Below are positions 1 through 19,334 of a stretch of 24,133 nucleotides of DNA, piece by piece. Position numbers and translations under genes: made by a program. The notes beneath the pieces are model-generated. The model ran no database searches and was not told the DNA's origin. It was given only the letters and a program-made list of their open reading frames with translations. The stretch's first letter is position 1. Each line of letters opens with the position of its first letter. This DNA is from a virus. The stretch spans positions 1 to 24,133 of the IMG/VR virus record IMGVR_UViG_3300028388_002906; one strand, 5' to 3'.

Positions 1-2826
1 CTGGAGAACATTATAGAGCTCTTGGAATGAGGTGTTTGCTCTATTGATAATATCGGTCTCACCTTCAAACAGACCTTCAACACGAGATTGCATGTACTCG
101 TTAGCACCTAGAGTTTCTTCGAGCTGTTCACCTGGAACAATGTAAGAAATAGGTGAACGATAAGTAATACCAGCTAAACGTCCCCAGTAGTTCGAGTCAA
201 GCGCAATGTCATATCCAAGACCATCAAGGATGATCTTAGAATCTCGCTCACACTTGTCAGCATCATATCCTTTGTAACCAAGCCCGCCATCAGCTGTATT
301 TGCTGTGAGATACTCGACCATGTCATCGATAATAAGTTCTTGACTCGCTTCAAGAGTATCGCCAAAGACCGTGTTACCTATAATAGTGGCTGAAGTTGCT
401 TTAGGAGCGAAGAACTCAGTAGTACCTTTTGCTCTCATCGAGATGTCACCGAACTGAGTACCTGAGTTGTTCAGTGTCATTTGTCCGCCATTCAATGCGT
501 AGAATGCGATACGAACGAAGATTGATAGAGAACCGATACCGTTAACACCAGCACCATCCCGTGCTACGTAACCGATACCGTTTTGAGTACGTGGTGTGAA
601 ACCGAAGCAAAGTACATATGTGTAAAGCGAGTCGGGATCGAGTACGCGTCGGTCTGCGAGTACGCACCCGCCTCCACGACCTACTAATCTATTCGGGAAG
701 TCATCAACACCGATGCTTTCAATTACACCAACACCACCAGATTCCGATGTTACTGTATCACCAACCGCGAAACCTTTGTTATTTTTCAGGTTACGAACTC
801 GAATAATACGATTGTTTGTGATGTCTCCAGGCTGTCCTTGCAGAGCGTCTTGAGAATCATCCCAAGATAGATAACCTACAGCACCAGAGCTAAATACGAT
901 CTCGTCGTCAAGTTCCCATGCTCCAGTAAAGCCAGCTTCAAGAGTGAATGTTCTACCTAAATCGGCCAGTGTACCTTTGCTGTTATATGGATTGAGCGGT
1001 GGTTCAATATCAGCACGAACGAAGTTAGAAAGCTGAGTACTGTCTCTTAGATATGGAGAACGGAGTAACTTAGCACCTGGGCGATAAGCAATCGCGAATC
1101 CACCTTCTGGATAATCGAAGTTGTCGATCTTCCAGTTCATATAAGAGAAACCTTGAACATAACAACCGGAACCTACGAGAACCGCGTTGTTGTTTTCATA
1201 TCCAGGAAGGGCTTCAATAACTGTTGCATACTGGCCTGATGTTGACGTTAATGAACAGTCGTCAGGAAGAGCAAGATTACCTTTAGTATAATACGTACCG
1301 GGTCCTACAGAAATATGAACAGCGTTATTAAGTGCGTTACGATCAAAAGATCCTCCGGCCTTTTCTAAGCAAAGCTCAAAAGCTCGCTCAAGTGTTTGTA
1401 CAGGTTGTAGCATAGTACCGGGGTTGTCATCGTTGCCGGATGCTGCGTCAACGTGAACTTTTAATGCCTGTGCAGTGCTCCTTGACACTTCATCAAAGAG
1501 TTGCTTATATGAAATCTGTTCTGTTTCGCCGGTCTTCTCGTTCTTAATTGCGAAGTAACTTTCTTCATCAAGTGGTGGATCGAACTTCTTAGTAAGATCC
1601 ATATCAAAGTCAACAAGATCAGAGTTTCTTACAATACCATTATCAAATGTAGACTTAGTAACATCACCACTGTCGAAAGAAGATCTCGTCTGGCTTAATC
1701 CGTCAGCACTCGAACTTGTAATTGACATATTCTGAGCAACTACATTGTCCATTGTGCCTGTGAACGATGTGTTTGAGATCTCAGAGTTCGTGATTGTGCT
1801 TTGATCAACAGTTGTGTTGGTAAAGATGTTGTTGTTACCAGTACCATCATTGAATTCGGACTGAGTAATTACAATATTGTTTGCAGTACTATCATTGAGT
1901 TCAGAATCTGTAATAACAATATTGTTTGCAGTCCCATCATTGAACTGAGATTGAGTAATTACGACATTATTCGCTGTGCTGTCATTAAGCTCAGAATCTG
2001 TGATAACAACGTTGTTTGCTGTACTATCAGTAATAGAACCGTCAGTGAATGTTGATTCTCGAATATCTAAATCTGTGCCTGTAGAGCTCTCAAGCTGTCC
2101 ATTCTGGAACAGCGAGGATGTCATCGTTACGTTATTTGCAGTCGAATCAAATATCTCTCCGTCAGTAAACGTAGACTGAGTGATGGCTACATTGTTAGCG
2201 GTGCTGTCTACAATGTCAGAATTTGAAATGAGTGACTGATCAATGGTAGAGTTCGTAAGAACGACGTTGTTACCGGTACCATCGTTAAATTCTGAATTAG
2301 TGATTACGACGTTGTTAGCAGTACTGTCGTTGAGCTCAGAGTTTGTAAGAACGACGTTGTTACCGGTAGAGTCGAGAATCTCTCCATCAATAAACTGAGA
2401 ATTTGTAATTACAATATTGTTTGCTGTACCATCATCGAAAGACGAATCAGTGATGGTCATCGTGTTAGCTACAGTAGCGAAGATGTTACCTAGCTGGAAA
2501 GAAGAGTACGAAATGACGATGTTATTAGCATCAGAATTTGTGATTACAGTGTCGTCGATGCTTCCTCGAACGAAGTTTGTATCTTCAATGTTCGAGTTGT
2601 CAATGATAACGTTCTCAAGTCGAGAGTCCGACATGATAACGCCAGAGATTGTTCCCCCGGTGATCGTGATACGATCGAAGATTTCGTACTGGATAGCCTG
2701 TACAAGTTCTTTACGAGTAATGCTACTCGTACCATCGTCACCTTGCACCAGGTTAACTATAACGAATAAGTCTTCCGTTCTAGTATTAGCACCGGTAATC
2801 GGAGGTAATTCTGAAATCTTTGACAT
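1..2826 (-). CDS. Repeat-rich tail fibre/spike protein with pectate-lyase-like module (3' end beyond window)
   Basis: The reading frame opens at ATG 2826 and stays open for 942 codons to the left edge, so the C-terminus is missing. Residues 1-40 look like the virion-attachment segment of a fibre (MSKISELPPI, then a stretch ending ITRKELVQAIQYE). From about residue 105 to 345 it is built of degenerate 15- or 20-residue units of the form [SG]T[AG]NN-[VI]VIT-x-S-x-[FL]-ND, resembling a pentapeptide-type quadrilateral beta-helix. Around residue 455 the segment VHVDAASGNDDNPGT begins what resembles the opening of phage pectate-lyase-fold (right-handed beta-helix) domains. The rest is beta-rich and contains a glycine-rich GDTVTSESGGVGVIESIG loop. 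A consensus late-promoter box and AAGGA ribosome site precede the start. Probable role: peripheral baseplate or side-fibre adhesin, possibly glycan-binding or glycan-degrading. No catalytic residues can be assigned. Confidence 0.85.
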   Translation of the reverse strand, partial: MSKISELPPITGANTRTEDLFVIVNLVQGDDGTSSITRKELVQAIQYEIFDRITITGGTISGVIMSDSRLENVIIDNSNIEDTNFVRGSIDDTVITNSDANNIVISYSSFQLGNIFATVANTMTITDSSFDDGTANNIVITNSQFIDGEILDSTGNNVVLTNSELNDSTANNVVITNSEFNDGTGNNVVLTNSTIDQSLISNSDIVDSTANNVAITQSTFTDGEIFDSTANNVTMTSSLFQNGQLESSTGTDLDIRESTFTDGSITDSTANNVVITDSELNDSTANNVVITQSQFNDGTANNIVITDSELNDSTANNIVITQSEFNDGTGNNNIFTNTTVDQSTITNSEISNTSFTGTMDNVVAQNMSITSSSADGLSQTRSSFDSGDVTKSTFDNGIVRNSDLVDFDMDLTKKFDPPLDEESYFAIKNEKTGETEQISYKQLFDEVSRSTAQALKVHVDAASGNDDNPGTMLQPVQTLERAFELCLEKAGGSFDRNALNNAVHISVGPGTYYTKGNLALPDDCSLTSTSGQYATVIEALPGYENNNAVLVGSGCYVQGFSYMNWKIDNFDYPEGGFAIAYRPGAKLLRSPYLRDSTQLSNFVRADIEPPLNPYNSKGTLADLGRTFTLEAGFTGAWELDDEIVFSSGAVGYLSWDDSQDALQGQPGDITNNRIIRVRNLKNNKGFAVGDTVTSESGGVGVIESIGVDDFPNRLVGRGGGCVLADRRVLDPDSLYTYVLCFGFTPRTQNGIGYVARDGAGVNGIGSLSIFVRIAFYALNGGQMTLNNSGTQFGDISMRAKGTTEFFAPKATSATIIGNTVFGDTLEASQELIIDDMVEYLTANTADGGLGYKGYDADKCERDSKIILDGLGYDIALDSNYWGRLAGITYRSPISYIVPGEQLEETLGANEYMQSRVEGLFEGETDIINRANTSFQELYNVLQ
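1800..2460 (-). repeat. Coding tandem repeats, 45/60-nt period
   Basis: About a dozen degenerate copies of a 15-residue unit, some extended to 20 residues, lie within the fibre gene at roughly residues 122-342. Examples are STANNVVITDSELND and GTANNIVITDSELND. All unit lengths are multiples of five residues, and a hydrophobic or small residue (I, F/L, A) recurs every fifth position, as expected of a pentapeptide-repeat beta-helix. Synonymous codons differ between copies, which suggests old duplication under protein-level selection rather than recent slippage. Confidence 0.8.
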
Positions 2827-11346: not shown

Positions 11347-13215
11347 TTAGGCTGCTACTACTATCTTTCTTCGAGGATAAGCTTGTCCTGAAGATGGCCT
11401 ACGGCCTTGTGCAGGACCTCTAACCGAATTAATGTATTTACCAGTGCCTAGTCGAATAGAGTATGGCAAATATATTCTGTCTGTTGGTGTACCGAAAAGA
11501 TCACTTAAATCGCTTCCACCGTTTTGCGAATCACCTTCACTGATGCGAAACACATTAAAAGAGCTATACAATCTTGTAGAAGCTTTATTTCCGGGAGAGC
11601 TTATACTTGAAAAATCTTCAAGACCTTCACTTTCAAGCACCTGCTTTGAGTTGTTTGTAATGATTTCTTTTAATTGCGCGATGGTAGGATAAACACCTCT
11701 TTTTACAAAGAAATCACATATCATTATACTCGCTGTCCCTGCTGCAACAGGCCCGGCACAAGAGGTTCCACTAAAGTATCCCCACGTTCCATCTAGTTTA
11801 GATGTTGTAGGATAAGAAGTCCACGTGTATGCGCCTGTTGCCGCAACATCAACCATAGGACCTCTATTACTATAATCATCTAATAAAGGATTAATAGTAC
11901 TATGTTGACAAGCAGCTATTGTTATTTGGTTTGCGCCACCACCCTTGAAAAGACGGCAGGGCCTTGCGAATACTGACGTAGGAGATGAGGGAGTAGTGTA
12001 AGTATTGAATACATATCTTCCATCTCCATCAAGAGATATATTCACGGCACTTACAGAGTTGTCTATGTAAACTTTGTTCTCTTTTCGAGGATCATTTTCG
12101 CCAACACCAACGGCAGAGTTATTTCCTGCACTATCAAAATGATATATTCCGCCGGTATTATTGTAACTATTCATGATTGTATCTAATGTTGTATAGCGAC
12201 TTCCTAAATTCCAGGCAATCATCCACTTGTCAGTGCTATCTGCAGGATCATTAATGACACGCGGAACCATTAAGTTATCAGTGAATGGCGTAAAGTCTGT
12301 ACCCCAGCCGCCGCCTGGTCTATTGATTGTAGTTAGATTTCCTGCAGTATCGTATACTTCCAGTTTATTAATATATTCAACCGGGGCGGCACCAGTCAAG
12401 TCAACTCCAGTAAAACCCCAAGCTCCAGTTACAATTGTGGCATTTCGAACTCCTGTTGCTGGATTTACCGGTTTATTTTGGTGAAAATTAAGAACACCAT
12501 TATAAGCTTCCGGGACGCCGTCCGCAAGATAAACCACTCTTAAGCTAGAGACTTTACTCCATCCACAATATGTACCACCGGCAGCACTCAATACTCCAAT
12601 AGCATGAGCACTAAAAAAAGTTGTATTAGCAGTCGCTTGATTTTGGCTAGCAAGACCAGACTCATAAGTCGTCCAATCAGTCTTAACAAATCTAGGATTA
12701 TTGTTAGCATCTAAAAAATCCGGATGTGTGTACGCATAAGAATCATATGTTGATAATGGTGTTCCGGCTTCTATCGCAACTATATCAACATATTCGCCGG
12801 CATAGTTTTGGTTTATAGTTGCAGAAACCTCAGCATCTTCCCCATCACCAGTAAAAAAACCAACGGGTCCAGAATTTGCTGTAATGTTTACTCCGCCATG
12901 AAACCAAAAATTAGTACCGGAATAATCAGCTCCGTTTGCTCCACTAGGTGCACTTCTTGTTTCGAGTGTAGTATTTCGTGTATACTCTGGTGTAACGGGA
13001 TAAGTAGTTTCAACTACAGGTAATTCTAATTCACAATCAATCACTAAATCACTTGACAATAGTACTGATACTTCTTCATCTGTAAGACGCATTGATATAA
13101 TACTGTCTAGCAAATTAAGGTTGCTAGCTACTTCCATCCCTGCAGCTTCATTTGCTAAGAACGCAGGTTCATCTGTTCCTGGTTGAAGAACAACTGTGTA
13201 TTTACGCTTTTCCAT
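11347..13215 (-). CDS. Virion-associated subtilisin-like (S8) serine protease
   Basis: A 622-aa protein. Residues ~5-62 (KYTVVLQPGT, then LTDEEVSVLLSSDLVIDCEL) resemble an inhibitor-I9 propeptide. The S8 domain follows: the Asp-box is VAIEAG, placing Glu149 where the catalytic Asp is normally found, with HPDF 164-167 in the usual spot after it. His204 lies in FSAHAIGVLS (the HGTHVAG position). The oxyanion Asn365 lies in SAGN, and nucleophile Ser485 in GTSCAGPVAAG. A segment around 446-460 (DDYSNRGPMVDVAATG) matches the usual FSN-x-GP-xVD-AAPG motif. There is no secretion signal, fitting a virion protein. The C-terminal tail is Arg/Gly/Pro-rich and basic (QGRRPSSGQAYPRRK). The gene sits between the cupredoxin fibre (3-nt gap) and gp8, so a baseplate or fibre location is inferred, perhaps cleaving host surface proteins or maturing virion proteins. 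The acid substitution leaves activity uncertain. Confidence 0.87.
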   Translation of the reverse strand: MEKRKYTVVLQPGTDEPAFLANEAAGMEVASNLNLLDSIISMRLTDEEVSVLLSSDLVIDCELELPVVETTYPVTPEYTRNTTLETRSAPSGANGADYSGTNFWFHGGVNITANSGPVGFFTGDGEDAEVSATINQNYAGEYVDIVAIEAGTPLSTYDSYAYTHPDFLDANNNPRFVKTDWTTYESGLASQNQATANTTFFSAHAIGVLSAAGGTYCGWSKVSSLRVVYLADGVPEAYNGVLNFHQNKPVNPATGVRNATIVTGAWGFTGVDLTGAAPVEYINKLEVYDTAGNLTTINRPGGGWGTDFTPFTDNLMVPRVINDPADSTDKWMIAWNLGSRYTTLDTIMNSYNNTGGIYHFDSAGNNSAVGVGENDPRKENKVYIDNSVSAVNISLDGDGRYVFNTYTTPSSPTSVFARPCRLFKGGGANQITIAACQHSTINPLLDDYSNRGPMVDVAATGAYTWTSYPTTSKLDGTWGYFSGTSCAGPVAAGTASIMICDFFVKRGVYPTIAQLKEIITNNSKQVLESEGLEDFSSISSPGNKASTRLYSSFNVFRISEGDSQNGGSDLSDLFGTPTDRIYLPYSIRLGTGKYINSVRGPAQGRRPSSGQAYPRRKIVVAA

Positions 13216-13218
13216 ATA

Positions 13219-14874
13219 TTATGTCTCTAAAGTAAGAGCGGTAAGAGTAACTGTAACTGTTCCGGTCGATCCTGAATTATTCTTTACTGCTGCTGGAATA
13301 GTAGTTTCACTATTATCAACGTATCCGTAAACAGCAGGTGTAACTTTAAATGTCGTGTTGGCTGAGGTAGCAATAAACTCTGCAATGATTCCTGCACCTT
13401 CTGGAGGATCATCACCCTGATTTCGACTAGCATCTGCTGTTCTTGATGCTGTATCAGAATATATTCTTACCCAGGATTCTTTATCAACAGTTACTGAGTA
13501 AAGTGCATAAGATTTTCCTAGATCAGCATATGCAACGTTTCCTGATGCGCCATTTGCTAAACTCGCTGTTGTTTCGGATTCAGTATTTCTAGAAAGAGAA
13601 CCTCCACTGCTGCCGGCCGCAGCTTCTAAAACTATGTTACCATTCATAGCTCCGTGAGATGTGCATTGATATTTGTAAGTTCCTGAAATGGCAGCTGGAA
13701 CTTTCCAATAAAGAACGCCTGATGTTTTACTTTGTGCATTAGAGCCTGTCGACACTGTTCCATTTGGAGCTACGTGTACAAGGCCTGTATTATAATTAGA
13801 CCCTTCAGGTTGTTGTATTGCAAATGGATGGCTTCCAAGAGCTGTTAGGTCGAAAGCAATAGTCATACCAGCTTTAGCATAAACAGTTGGATTATCTGTT
13901 GTTCCATACTGGTCGAAACGAAAAGCTGATGTTCCATTAGGTGTTGCTACTAAGGTTGTTGAAGCTTGTACAGCTATATCATGAACATCGATATCTGCTG
14001 CATTGATTTCGGTAAGTGCAGCAAAAGTAGACGATCCCCCACCGGCGGTAACCCAGTCATAGTCAGAGCCAGTCCAACTTAGTACTTCACCTGCAGAAGC
14101 TGATCCAGTATTTAAATGTGTATTGACATCACTGTCAGAATAACCTGCGCTTACAGTAGCAAATTCAATTCCGTCACCACCACTATTAATTCTTAAAATT
14201 TGCCCGGCGGATCCAAATGATGCAGGTGTATCAGATAAGCTTATGAACGTACCAGTACCAGCAGTAGCATCTGCAGCATTAACCCAAGCGGAACCGTTCC
14301 ACTTTAATACTTCACCGTTACTTGGACTTGAAACCGTAACGTCACTAAGATCATCTATAGCAGAAGCACCTCCGCCGCTCGCAGCAATAGTGATAGAGTC
14401 GTTTGTACTATTAGTTGTAAGAGTAATATTTGAACCGGCTACAAAAGTAAGCGTATCAGTCGTGCCATCTGCCACAATGTTGTTTTGGCCAGAAACTGCT
14501 ATTGTACCAAATGTGTTAGCAGACGAACCTCCACCTCCACCTATATCAGTAAACTTAGCAATCTTAATCCAATCATTGGAATCTGAGTAATAAAGCGATC
14601 CTGTGTCTTGAGCGAATCCAATACAACCTTTATACGTAGATTCGTTCAAAGCAAGTAAAGCAGCTTCTGATGGATAAAAGAAAGATACTTTGTGGGCTTT
14701 GCCGGTGAGATCAAACTCGCCAGAACCGTTGAAAAGGTTCGTTGCGTTACTAGAATTTCCTAGCGCAAAATACAACTCATTGAAGTTGTCGTTTGTTTTA
14801 TCGAAAGCATTACGGAGAGGATCACCATTTCCGTCATTAGCGGATGCTCCGATGTTGATTATCTGCTTGGCCAT
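13219..14874 (-). CDS. Baseplate/fibre protein with a type-1 copper (cupredoxin) domain
   Basis: A 551-aa modular virion protein. Residues 1-40 (IINIGASANDGNGDPLRNAF, then DKTNDNFNELYFALG) are a recurrent N-terminal module of marine T4-like structural proteins, probably a virion anchor. Residues ~60-110 form a small beta module with a Trp. About 170-280 hold fibre-type segments (LSDVTVSSPSNGEVLKWNGS and related repeats). Residues ~285-415 form a cupredoxin fold: His349 in GSHPFAIQ, then Cys404, His407 and Met410 in YQCTSHGAMNG. The C-x2-H-x2-M spacing is that of amicyanin, so a full type-1 copper ligand set is present. The C-terminal ~125 residues are a beta domain (SRTADASRNQGDDPPEGAGI) of a kind I recall from marine phage tail proteins. 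It follows gp7 and precedes the subtilase. Electron transfer, copper binding or a purely structural role are all possible. Confidence 0.85.
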   Translation of the reverse strand: MAKQIINIGASANDGNGDPLRNAFDKTNDNFNELYFALGNSSNATNLFNGSGEFDLTGKAHKVSFFYPSEAALLALNESTYKGCIGFAQDTGSLYYSDSNDWIKIAKFTDIGGGGGSSANTFGTIAVSGQNNIVADGTTDTLTFVAGSNITLTTNSTNDSITIAASGGGASAIDDLSDVTVSSPSNGEVLKWNGSAWVNAADATAGTGTFISLSDTPASFGSAGQILRINSGGDGIEFATVSAGYSDSDVNTHLNTGSASAGEVLSWTGSDYDWVTAGGGSSTFAALTEINAADIDVHDIAVQASTTLVATPNGTSAFRFDQYGTTDNPTVYAKAGMTIAFDLTALGSHPFAIQQPEGSNYNTGLVHVAPNGTVSTGSNAQSKTSGVLYWKVPAAISGTYKYQCTSHGAMNGNIVLEAAAGSSGGSLSRNTESETTASLANGASGNVAYADLGKSYALYSVTVDKESWVRIYSDTASRTADASRNQGDDPPEGAGIIAEFIATSANTTFKVTPAVYGYVDNSETTIPAAVKNNSGSTGTVTVTLTALTLET

Positions 14875-17474: not shown

Positions 17475-19334
17475 TTATAACGTTCCGATAGTTGACGATG
17501 AAGTTGAAGTACCGACTTTAGTTGTTGACTCTCTTACATCAACAAACACATCATCATCTCGAATAATAAACACACGACCCTGTGGCGCTTTTACATTACT
17601 TCCTTTGAGACGCGCCTTAATCTTAATAGCGCTTCCGTTATATTCTTCAACGATAAAGTTTGATAACTTGATCTCGCCTGTAGCGTAGTTAACTGTCCCT
17701 GCAGAAGGGTTTACTACCTGAGGATTCGTAGCGTCATCAGTAACAGTCATCATATTACCGATGCCGTCGTCCTGAAGATAAACACATACACCATCAACAT
17801 CAAAAGGAGTACTGGTAACTGCTGGCTTGTAATCAGAAAAGCCGTTAGTCGCTCTGAAAGGATATGGCTTCACCAACTCAGATTCGAATCTAAATGAAGG
17901 GGCTGCTCGAACATTTAAAACAGGAGAGTACTCAATATAAGGCGTGAGTTCGATTGAACTACTCTCAATAGCGGTGTCTAGATTATCGAGTGCGCTAGTT
18001 AGTTTCGATCTATAAAGCGTAGTGTTGAAATCTTCTAGATTATTGTTTGAGTATGTTTGTACTGCTGCTCGAATTAATGATTCAAGTTCGGCTACTGTTT
18101 TCTCGGTGTACTTATTAGTATACAGAGAGCTGATATCGAGTTCGCTATAAATGAATTTTGTTTGTACAAACACAGGCTCGATACCAAGAGGACTCTTTTC
18201 TGAAAGATAAGTGATAAATGCGTTTGAAAGTGTTGAGCTAATCAACTGGGTGTTATCATCTAAGAAAACACTAATAGCGACTTTACCAAACTGAGGTGGA
18301 TCAAGATCCTCACCTCCATAAGCAGATACTGCCTTAATCTCTGGAAATCTTTGCTTCAGTAGAATCTCGTAGTCGCTGGTTGTTACAGCTCGCTCTTGAA
18401 TTTGTAAAGCTTTTGGAGCGAAATAACGAATACTTTCGATTGATTCTCTTTCCTGACCGCCAGATGCTGCTGAGATCGTTTGTACATCAATGGTTGCATT
18501 CTCTACGAAGCTAGCTGAAAAACTGTTAGCCCCATTTGCTTCCGCGCCTGACGTGACGCGGTACCTCACGCGGACGTCTTCAAATTCTTCTGGCTGTAAA
18601 CCAAATTCGTTCTTACCGAAGTAGATCGAATATCGATCATCGAAGTATGGCTCAATGTAGAACACTTTATCAGTAGGCTTAACACCAAAGATTGTGTTAG
18701 CTCGAGCAAAAATGTTCTGATCTTCTGTTGCTTCCGCATCTACGAACACGACAATTGAATCAGTGTCTACTTCGTTGTTAGTAAGATAGACTCTTAGAAT
18801 ACCGTCTGCATCGACGATAAATCCTTCACGTTGGAAGCTAGATAGCATTTGTCCTTCGTAAATAACAACATTATCAGCGACAAACTCAATGTCTCCTGTT
18901 ACGGCATTCAGTGTTTTTCTCGCTACATACACTTCGTCTGTTACGAAGTTGAATGTCTCACCCTGATAGTTCGAGCTGAAGTTGCTGTAACGAGGAATCG
19001 TAATCGTTGAGCCTTGAAAATCGGGAGAGTCAATAACTAATCTTACAGTTGCTCGAGCTGACTTACGAGATCTTGGTAGATAGTTTAATTCTTTAGCATG
19101 GGAAACGACAGAGTTCTTGATGACGGCCGAGTCAAGGAACATCTCGTTGATTGCCATATTTGTGTAGAAGTTGTTTTGAAACGTGTTGAATGCAAGAACA
19201 TCGAGCAACGCACTTAAGTTACTTCCTTCAAAATTGTAATCTTTAAACTGAGCTTGCGTTTGCAAGTATTGTCTTAGCTGAGTTTTGATCGAATCAAAAT
19301 CAAGCTCAGTGATTGGTGTCTTAGGATTGGCCAT
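17475..19334 (-). CDS. 6: Baseplate wedge subunit gp6
   Basis: A 619-aa gp6 homologue (T4: 660 aa). The N-terminus is diagnostic: SALLDVLAFNTFQNNFYTNM, NEMFLDSAVIKNSVVSHAKE and LNYLPRSRKSARATVRL, the family core of baseplate J/gp6 proteins. Further in, ESIRYFAPKALQIQERAVTT followed by SDYEILLKQRFPEI is the conserved dimerisation-region motif shared with baseplate J proteins of P2-like tails. In T4 two gp6 chains per wedge form the iris-like ring around the hub that opens during sheath contraction, with gp25 and gp53. The gene begins 1 nt after the gp25 stop and ends 15 nt before the gp7-like gene, so the three wedge-core genes are almost certainly co-translated. No anomaly seen. Confidence 0.95.
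   Translation of the reverse strand: MANPKTPITELDFDSIKTQLRQYLQTQAQFKDYNFEGSNLSALLDVLAFNTFQNNFYTNMAINEMFLDSAVIKNSVVSHAKELNYLPRSRKSARATVRLVIDSPDFQGSTITIPRYSNFSSNYQGETFNFVTDEVYVARKTLNAVTGDIEFVADNVVIYEGQMLSSFQREGFIVDADGILRVYLTNNEVDTDSIVVFVDAEATEDQNIFARANTIFGVKPTDKVFYIEPYFDDRYSIYFGKNEFGLQPEEFEDVRVRYRVTSGAEANGANSFSASFVENATIDVQTISAASGGQERESIESIRYFAPKALQIQERAVTTSDYEILLKQRFPEIKAVSAYGGEDLDPPQFGKVAISVFLDDNTQLISSTLSNAFITYLSEKSPLGIEPVFVQTKFIYSELDISSLYTNKYTEKTVAELESLIRAAVQTYSNNNLEDFNTTLYRSKLTSALDNLDTAIESSSIELTPYIEYSPVLNVRAAPSFRFESELVKPYPFRATNGFSDYKPAVTSTPFDVDGVCVYLQDDGIGNMMTVTDDATNPQVVNPSAGTVNYATGEIKLSNFIVEEYNGSAIKIKARLKGSNVKAPQGRVFIIRDDDVFVDVRESTTKVGTSTSSSTIGTL

Follow-up and report, generated by a model that had tools for sequence, protein, structure and literature searches.

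The DNA of an aquatic tailed phage analyzed here, a window of 24,133 nucleotides spanning positions 1 to 24,133 of IMG/VR record IMGVR_UViG_3300028388_002906, encodes on its minus strand a 551-residue gp9/gp10-like fiber protein (13219..14874), assigned as baseplate-attached from its ORF and from Pfam and PHROG matches. Residues 283-418 of this protein (13621..14028, minus strand) are a genuine cupredoxin domain with a predicted intact type-1 copper site of amicyanin spacing, as judged from three independent lines that agree with one another: profile matches to PDB sequences, AlphaFold (AF2) modeling with Foldseek searches, and conservation of the ligands. The predicted ligands, all encoded on the minus strand, are His349 (13828..13830), the first ligand, in an HPF motif; Cys404 (13663..13665), the thiolate ligand; His407 (13654..13656), the second His ligand; and Met410 (13645..13647), the axial ligand. 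Cupredoxins and iron in phage fibers are already known, and automatic scans place some relatives of this domain above the cut-off of Pfam family PF00127. What is new is a near-invariant type-1 copper site, predicted from sequence, that we strongly infer for phage tails. In the open-licence literature that we searched, no paper turned up that describes a phage virion protein with a cupredoxin or a type-1 copper site; it is very probable that phage tails carry copper, and for a purpose not yet described there.

Fiber protein architecture and cupredoxin fold

The fiber ORF starts with an ATG at 14872-14874 on the minus strand, and the protein begins straight with a baseplate-anchor module (residues 3-45; 14740..14868, minus strand); no export signal was apparent on inspection of the sequence. 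The anchor matches Pfam T4_gp9_10_N at E 1.2e-5, a narrow pass (25.9 bits; cut-off 25), and the N-terminus also matches the baseplate wedge subunit phrog_958 at 5e-8. Fiber repeats come after the anchor. Residues 258-417 match phrog_677, the "baseplate wedge tail fiber protein connector" that corresponds to the cyanomyovirus gp9 connector, at 2e-47, and the protein closes with a beta-rich module (residues 424-551; 13222..13605, minus strand) recognized by a phrog_15343 match to residues 419-550 at 1.7e-18. The phrog_15343 module is also common to other fibers. A Pfam scan of the whole protein returned T4_gp9_10_N, while cupredoxin scores, all below threshold, appeared in the cut-out domain alone. 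On the basis of sequence matches the gene belongs to a cluster of T4-like baseplate genes; the product of 17475-19334 resembles T4-superfamily baseplate wedge proteins, with the best matches in Sinorhizobium phages phiN3 and phiM12 (39%). The tail region also holds a pentapeptide-repeat protein (1-2826, minus strand), which is cut by the window end after 942 residues and bears a recurring NNVVITxSxFxDGT pattern.

As a single sequence, the window domain scores 14.9 bits against PF00127, below the cut-off of 21.2, and 19.4 bits against the TIGR02657 amicyanin equivalog, below the NCBIfam cut-off of 110.2. Relatives that do exceed the PF00127 cut-off include the domain of locus L243 (34.2 bits), the S8 protein of L021 (23.8) and the P-SSM2 proximal tail fiber, which passes by 0.3 bits (21.5). 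Within its own record the domain is matched at 13627-14025. Profile A3, built from 22 diverse phage copies, matched plastocyanin (1.2e-5), copper nitrite reductase (3e-5), amicyanin (1e-4) and rusticyanin (2e-4) in the PDB, and the 60 A3 matches listed were exclusively cupredoxin-fold copper proteins. A profile of 64 copies (A4) gave the same overall picture, with nitrite reductase at 5e-6 and, among the matches listed, again every one a cupredoxin-fold copper protein. Rusticyanin could be aligned with the phage domain over its full length, with a weak E value of 0.025, and the four ligands fall on its H, C, H and M. Supporting only is a comparison with an amicyanin sequence whose ends agree with PDB fragments: this one comparison gave E 5e-7 and aligned the first His two residues off.

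AF2 folded the domain with a pLDDT of 93.7 and a pTM of 0.86 when given 64 homologs, and with a pLDDT of 52 when given the single sequence without an alignment. In the model (strands in domain numbering), His349 lies immediately ahead of strand 69-72, Cys404 at the end of strand 116-122, and His407 and Met410 in the loop ahead of strand 129-135; this modeled placement is the canonical cupredoxin order. The best 50 Foldseek matches in the PDB were all copper proteins, with probability 1.00 and E values from 5e-6, and included amicyanin, rusticyanin, plastocyanin, AcoP, nitrous oxide reductase, nitrite reductase and laccase. TM-scores were moderate, at 0.37-0.51 by query and up to 0.64 by target.

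The phage domain thus resembles the plastocyanin/azurin-family cupredoxins of PF00127 in fold, strand order and the H...C-x2-H-x2-M set, with amicyanin the nearest in loop spacing. It differs from these proteins in the HPF motif at its first His and in the small and variable residues (Ala/Gly/Ser) near the second His, where amicyanin has Pro/Phe, and it scores below the amicyanin equivalog cut-off. While PF00127 cupredoxins are exported soluble electron carriers, this domain would be part of a large virion fiber made in the cytoplasm. The original prediction had named the same four residues, their amicyanin-type C-x2-H-x2-M spacing and the anchor and fiber modules on either side. Its residue numbering proved exact in an alignment of 11 full-length relatives, the spacing is that of the PDB amicyanin loop, T4_gp9_10_N, phrog_677 and phrog_15343 bear out the flanking modules, and structure prediction and structural search returned a cupredoxin fold with the ligands at their canonical topological places.

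Conservation of the predicted copper ligands

The 11 full-length relatives that were aligned keep all four ligands without exception. A broader collection of 377 loci yielded 305 unique domain copies aligned over 114 columns, and the exact H/C/H/M set was present in 290 of the 305. In order of conservation the ligand columns take places 1, 2, 3 and 5, with His349 kept in 98% of 302 unique copies, Cys404 and His407 each in 99% of 296, and Met410 in 99.7% of 294. The 15 remaining copies are mostly truncated or degenerate second domains, plus one HCHQ copy and one ligand-less copy (L041). Some of the search patterns held ligand residues themselves, and a recount was therefore limited to sets gathered with patterns lying outside the ligand positions. 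Among unique copies found with ligand-free peptide patterns, 140/144 have HCHM, the four exceptions being a degenerate second domain in a neighboring protein, and the set is complete in 18/18 copies from annotated phage records. The probability that four arbitrary columns would all fall within the top five of 114 is about 7e-7, by arithmetic alone and ignoring the bias of Cys and His, columns of which are conserved more often than average. A chance motif was rejected on the strength of this conservation and of the profile searches.

A structural cysteine was also considered as a reason for keeping Cys404. The window protein has two cysteines only, Cys84 and Cys404, of which the former is not kept among relatives. 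A disulfide bond therefore fails to account for Cys404, and this candidate was rejected. Near-invariant ligand columns that are not accounted for by a disulfide suggest that metal binding, most likely of copper, is the property under selection, although the occupant of the site could in nature be another soft metal.

Cupredoxin-fold domains without metal exist, and the phage domain might be a plain beta-sandwich, a co-opted cupredoxin fold whose ligand residues are kept for folding and bind no metal. This would be in keeping with L041 (844-2031), a natural apo variant that has lost three of the four ligands (N/N/Q/M) and retained the fold signature, and with the degenerate relative in the gp9-neighboring protein. 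In apo-type derivatives, however, the ligands drift, while here they fill four of the top five places in column conservation, down to about 25% identity. We consider a metal-free sandwich highly improbable. L041, as one clear ligand loss, indicates that the fold tolerates such loss; since loss is tolerated yet rare, its rarity may point to a copper-specific activity.

Carrier proteins and distribution of the domain

The domain is matched by 238 phage records at E 1e-5, nearly all of them from Synechococcus and Prochlorococcus phages and mostly annotated as gp9. Among marine cyanomyoviruses it is a widespread part of gp9, and other fibers carry it too. Cyanomyovirus gp9 (PHROG 677; S-SSM5, S-RIM8, P-SSM4) shares with the window protein both the gp9/10-like N-terminus and the HCHM domain, but the domain is C-terminal in gp9 and is followed by a further module (phrog_15343) in the window protein. 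The same domain stands at the N-terminus of a protein of podovirus P-GSP1, twice in the P-SSM2 proximal tail fiber (Q58M57), at the C-terminus of subtilisin-like proteases in ACG-2014j-type phages, and more generally in S8/S53 peptidases of cyanophages ACG-2014e/h/j. The P-SSM2 fiber and the peptidases differ from the window protein as carriers and in domain order, and their annotations make no mention of copper in the records examined. An actinobacterial phage record also carries the module. At the outset, related domains in further virion proteins of marine phages had been thought possible; they proved to be many. From these architectures, which range from the gp9 C-terminus and the interior of the window fiber to the P-GSP1 N-terminus, S8 proteins with C-terminal or inserted copies, and Flavobacteriales proteins, the cupredoxin is, by sequence comparison, a movable module that in the window is built into a gp9/gp10-like fiber predicted to hang from the baseplate wedge.

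Four marine Flavobacteriales MAG loci (L379, L380, L381 and L382) were found by a scan with the L237 domain, and a bacterial-genome scan with the query A2 found no relative. The Flavobacteriales loci encode secreted-looking modular proteins with an HPF...C-x2-H-x2-M domain 42-50% identical to a phage copy.

One relative has been found in virions. S-SZBM1_206 (498 residues) combines a gp9-like start with an intact C-terminal cupredoxin domain, and LC-MS of CsCl-purified S-SZBM1 virions detected it with nine peptides at 24.9% coverage (PMC9146016). By homology with such gp9-type relatives, the window protein is probably a virion component as well. The annotation of proteins now recorded as "hypothetical" or as "baseplate wedge tail fiber connector" could be corrected, since they contain a predicted type-1 copper site that is near-invariant.

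In L169, L198 and L210, the gene downstream of cyanomyovirus gp9 holds further degenerate cupredoxin-like domains together with Pfam YHYH. These domains have the form HPL/HPM...YYxCxxH, one of them with an axial Gln, and the L210 copy is matched by 226 phage records.

Possible roles of copper in the tail

It is likely that each copy of the domain binds one copper ion in the virion. Free copper is kept very low in the host cytoplasm, where the fiber protein would fold, and loading would therefore probably take place outside it, once the virion has been released or when it is at a cell envelope. Taken as a whole, a reading in which residues 283-418 are an intact type-1 cupredoxin serving as a movable fiber module with a copper-stabilized structural or docking role is, in our view, somewhat better than an even bet. 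Its least certain step, with chances about evenly balanced, is that copper would lock the loop and barrel of a compact beta-module with a structural or docking role in the fiber; a specific electron-transfer partner would not be required. One counterpoint is that copper acting purely to stabilize the fold would be expected to permit more ligand losses than are seen.

In the window family, mean identity is 72% in the domain, 68% in the N-terminal 60 residues, 48% in the middle and 57% at the C-terminus, values somewhat biased by the ranking of loci on their cupredoxin domain; in gp9 the domain (77%) and the anchor (79%) are about equally conserved. No other region of the window family is as well conserved as the domain, which argues against a hypervariable receptor-binding tip. 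Copper-dependent receptor engagement, in which a host outer-membrane protein recognizes the loaded domain or swaps copper with it, would be to copper what the proposed "Trojan horse" entry is to iron. Ligand conservation that makes copper binding appear selected as such, the predicted attachment of the protein to the baseplate, and the metal-in-tail-fiber hypothesis for iron in marine phages (PMC11705849) are all consistent with it. Yet typical host-range determinants do not behave like a domain conserved at 72% beside regions at 48% and 57%, or like one whose conservation in gp9 is close to that of the anchor; it is also found at non-distal positions, and no host partner is known. We regard receptor engagement as unlikely.

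Electron exchange with the host envelope was part of the original prediction. It could take the form of transfer to or from proteins of the host envelope or of photosynthesis, or of a redox change that triggers the baseplate. The complete and nearly invariant redox-type ligand set, axial Met included, agrees with such a function, and the cyanobacterial hosts of many relatives are rich in cupredoxin redox chemistry. No second redox center was noticed in the window, however, the unrelated architectures (flavobacterial secreted-looking proteins, proteases) have no common partner, and residues near the second His vary. Recurrence in many architectures and this variability argue against a fixed electron-transfer partner, and we hold electron transfer to be very unlikely. 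Electron exchange with the host envelope is possible, though nothing that we found directly supports it; of the original prediction, the fold, a complete ligand set under strong selection with Cys404, His407 and Met410 kept among homologs, the baseplate/fiber location and the marine relatives all stood. Because the domain does not look tip-like and seems tied to no fixed partner, the copper-stabilized structural or docking module is favored.

A broader possibility, which we hold to be doubtful, is a tail switch: fibers and proteases made in apo form would be metallated outside the cell, and copper or its redox state would then enable attachment, protease action or baseplate triggering. Such a switch, if real, would span a large part of the aquatic T4-like phages. 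Cyanomyoviruses count among the phages that abound in the sunlit ocean. If a conserved copper site in their tails is confirmed, infection would have a metal requirement so far unrecognized, the tails would make up a small pool of biological copper in seawater, and a link between copper speciation and phage infectivity could be tested directly.

By analogy, a copper-stabilized module would parallel the iron of T4 gp37. T4 gp37 and the fibers of alterophage R22Y hold metal in a phage tail fiber, as is proposed here, and their iron-binding sites are formed by paired histidines of HxH motifs (PMC11705849). In contrast to these HxH fibers, a single chain would supply a mononuclear type-1 H/C/H/M site in the window protein, in which no HxH motif was found.

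Association of the domain with tail proteases differs among families. The gene adjacent and downstream in the window encodes an S8 subtilase-like tail protein of 622 residues (11347..13215, minus strand; Peptidase_S8, 1e-7). Alignment of its orthologs places a cupredoxin insertion at a single site, between INR and GGWGTD (residues about 299-302; 12310..12321, minus strand): L003, L011 and L021 carry the domain there, and the window copy, L001 and L015 are cleanly without it. The domain may work with a tail-associated subtilisin-like protease, for example in tail retention or copper gating. This clean presence or absence at one site is consistent with such a partnership, as are S8 ORFs in 70/124 window-family loci, with the cupredoxin fused in the same ORF in 12, and fusions in 66/68 ACG-2014j-type loci, a set gathered using a fused query. 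Against it, S8 ORFs were found in 0/80 gp9-type and 0/80 P-GSP1-type loci in the fetched DNA, a weak absence since many of these loci are short; the domain therefore does not appear to need the protease, and we consider a joint function decidedly unlikely. In the six aligned S8 orthologs, the usual catalytic Asp position appears to be Glu (VDIVAIE, E149), with His204 and Ser485 kept.
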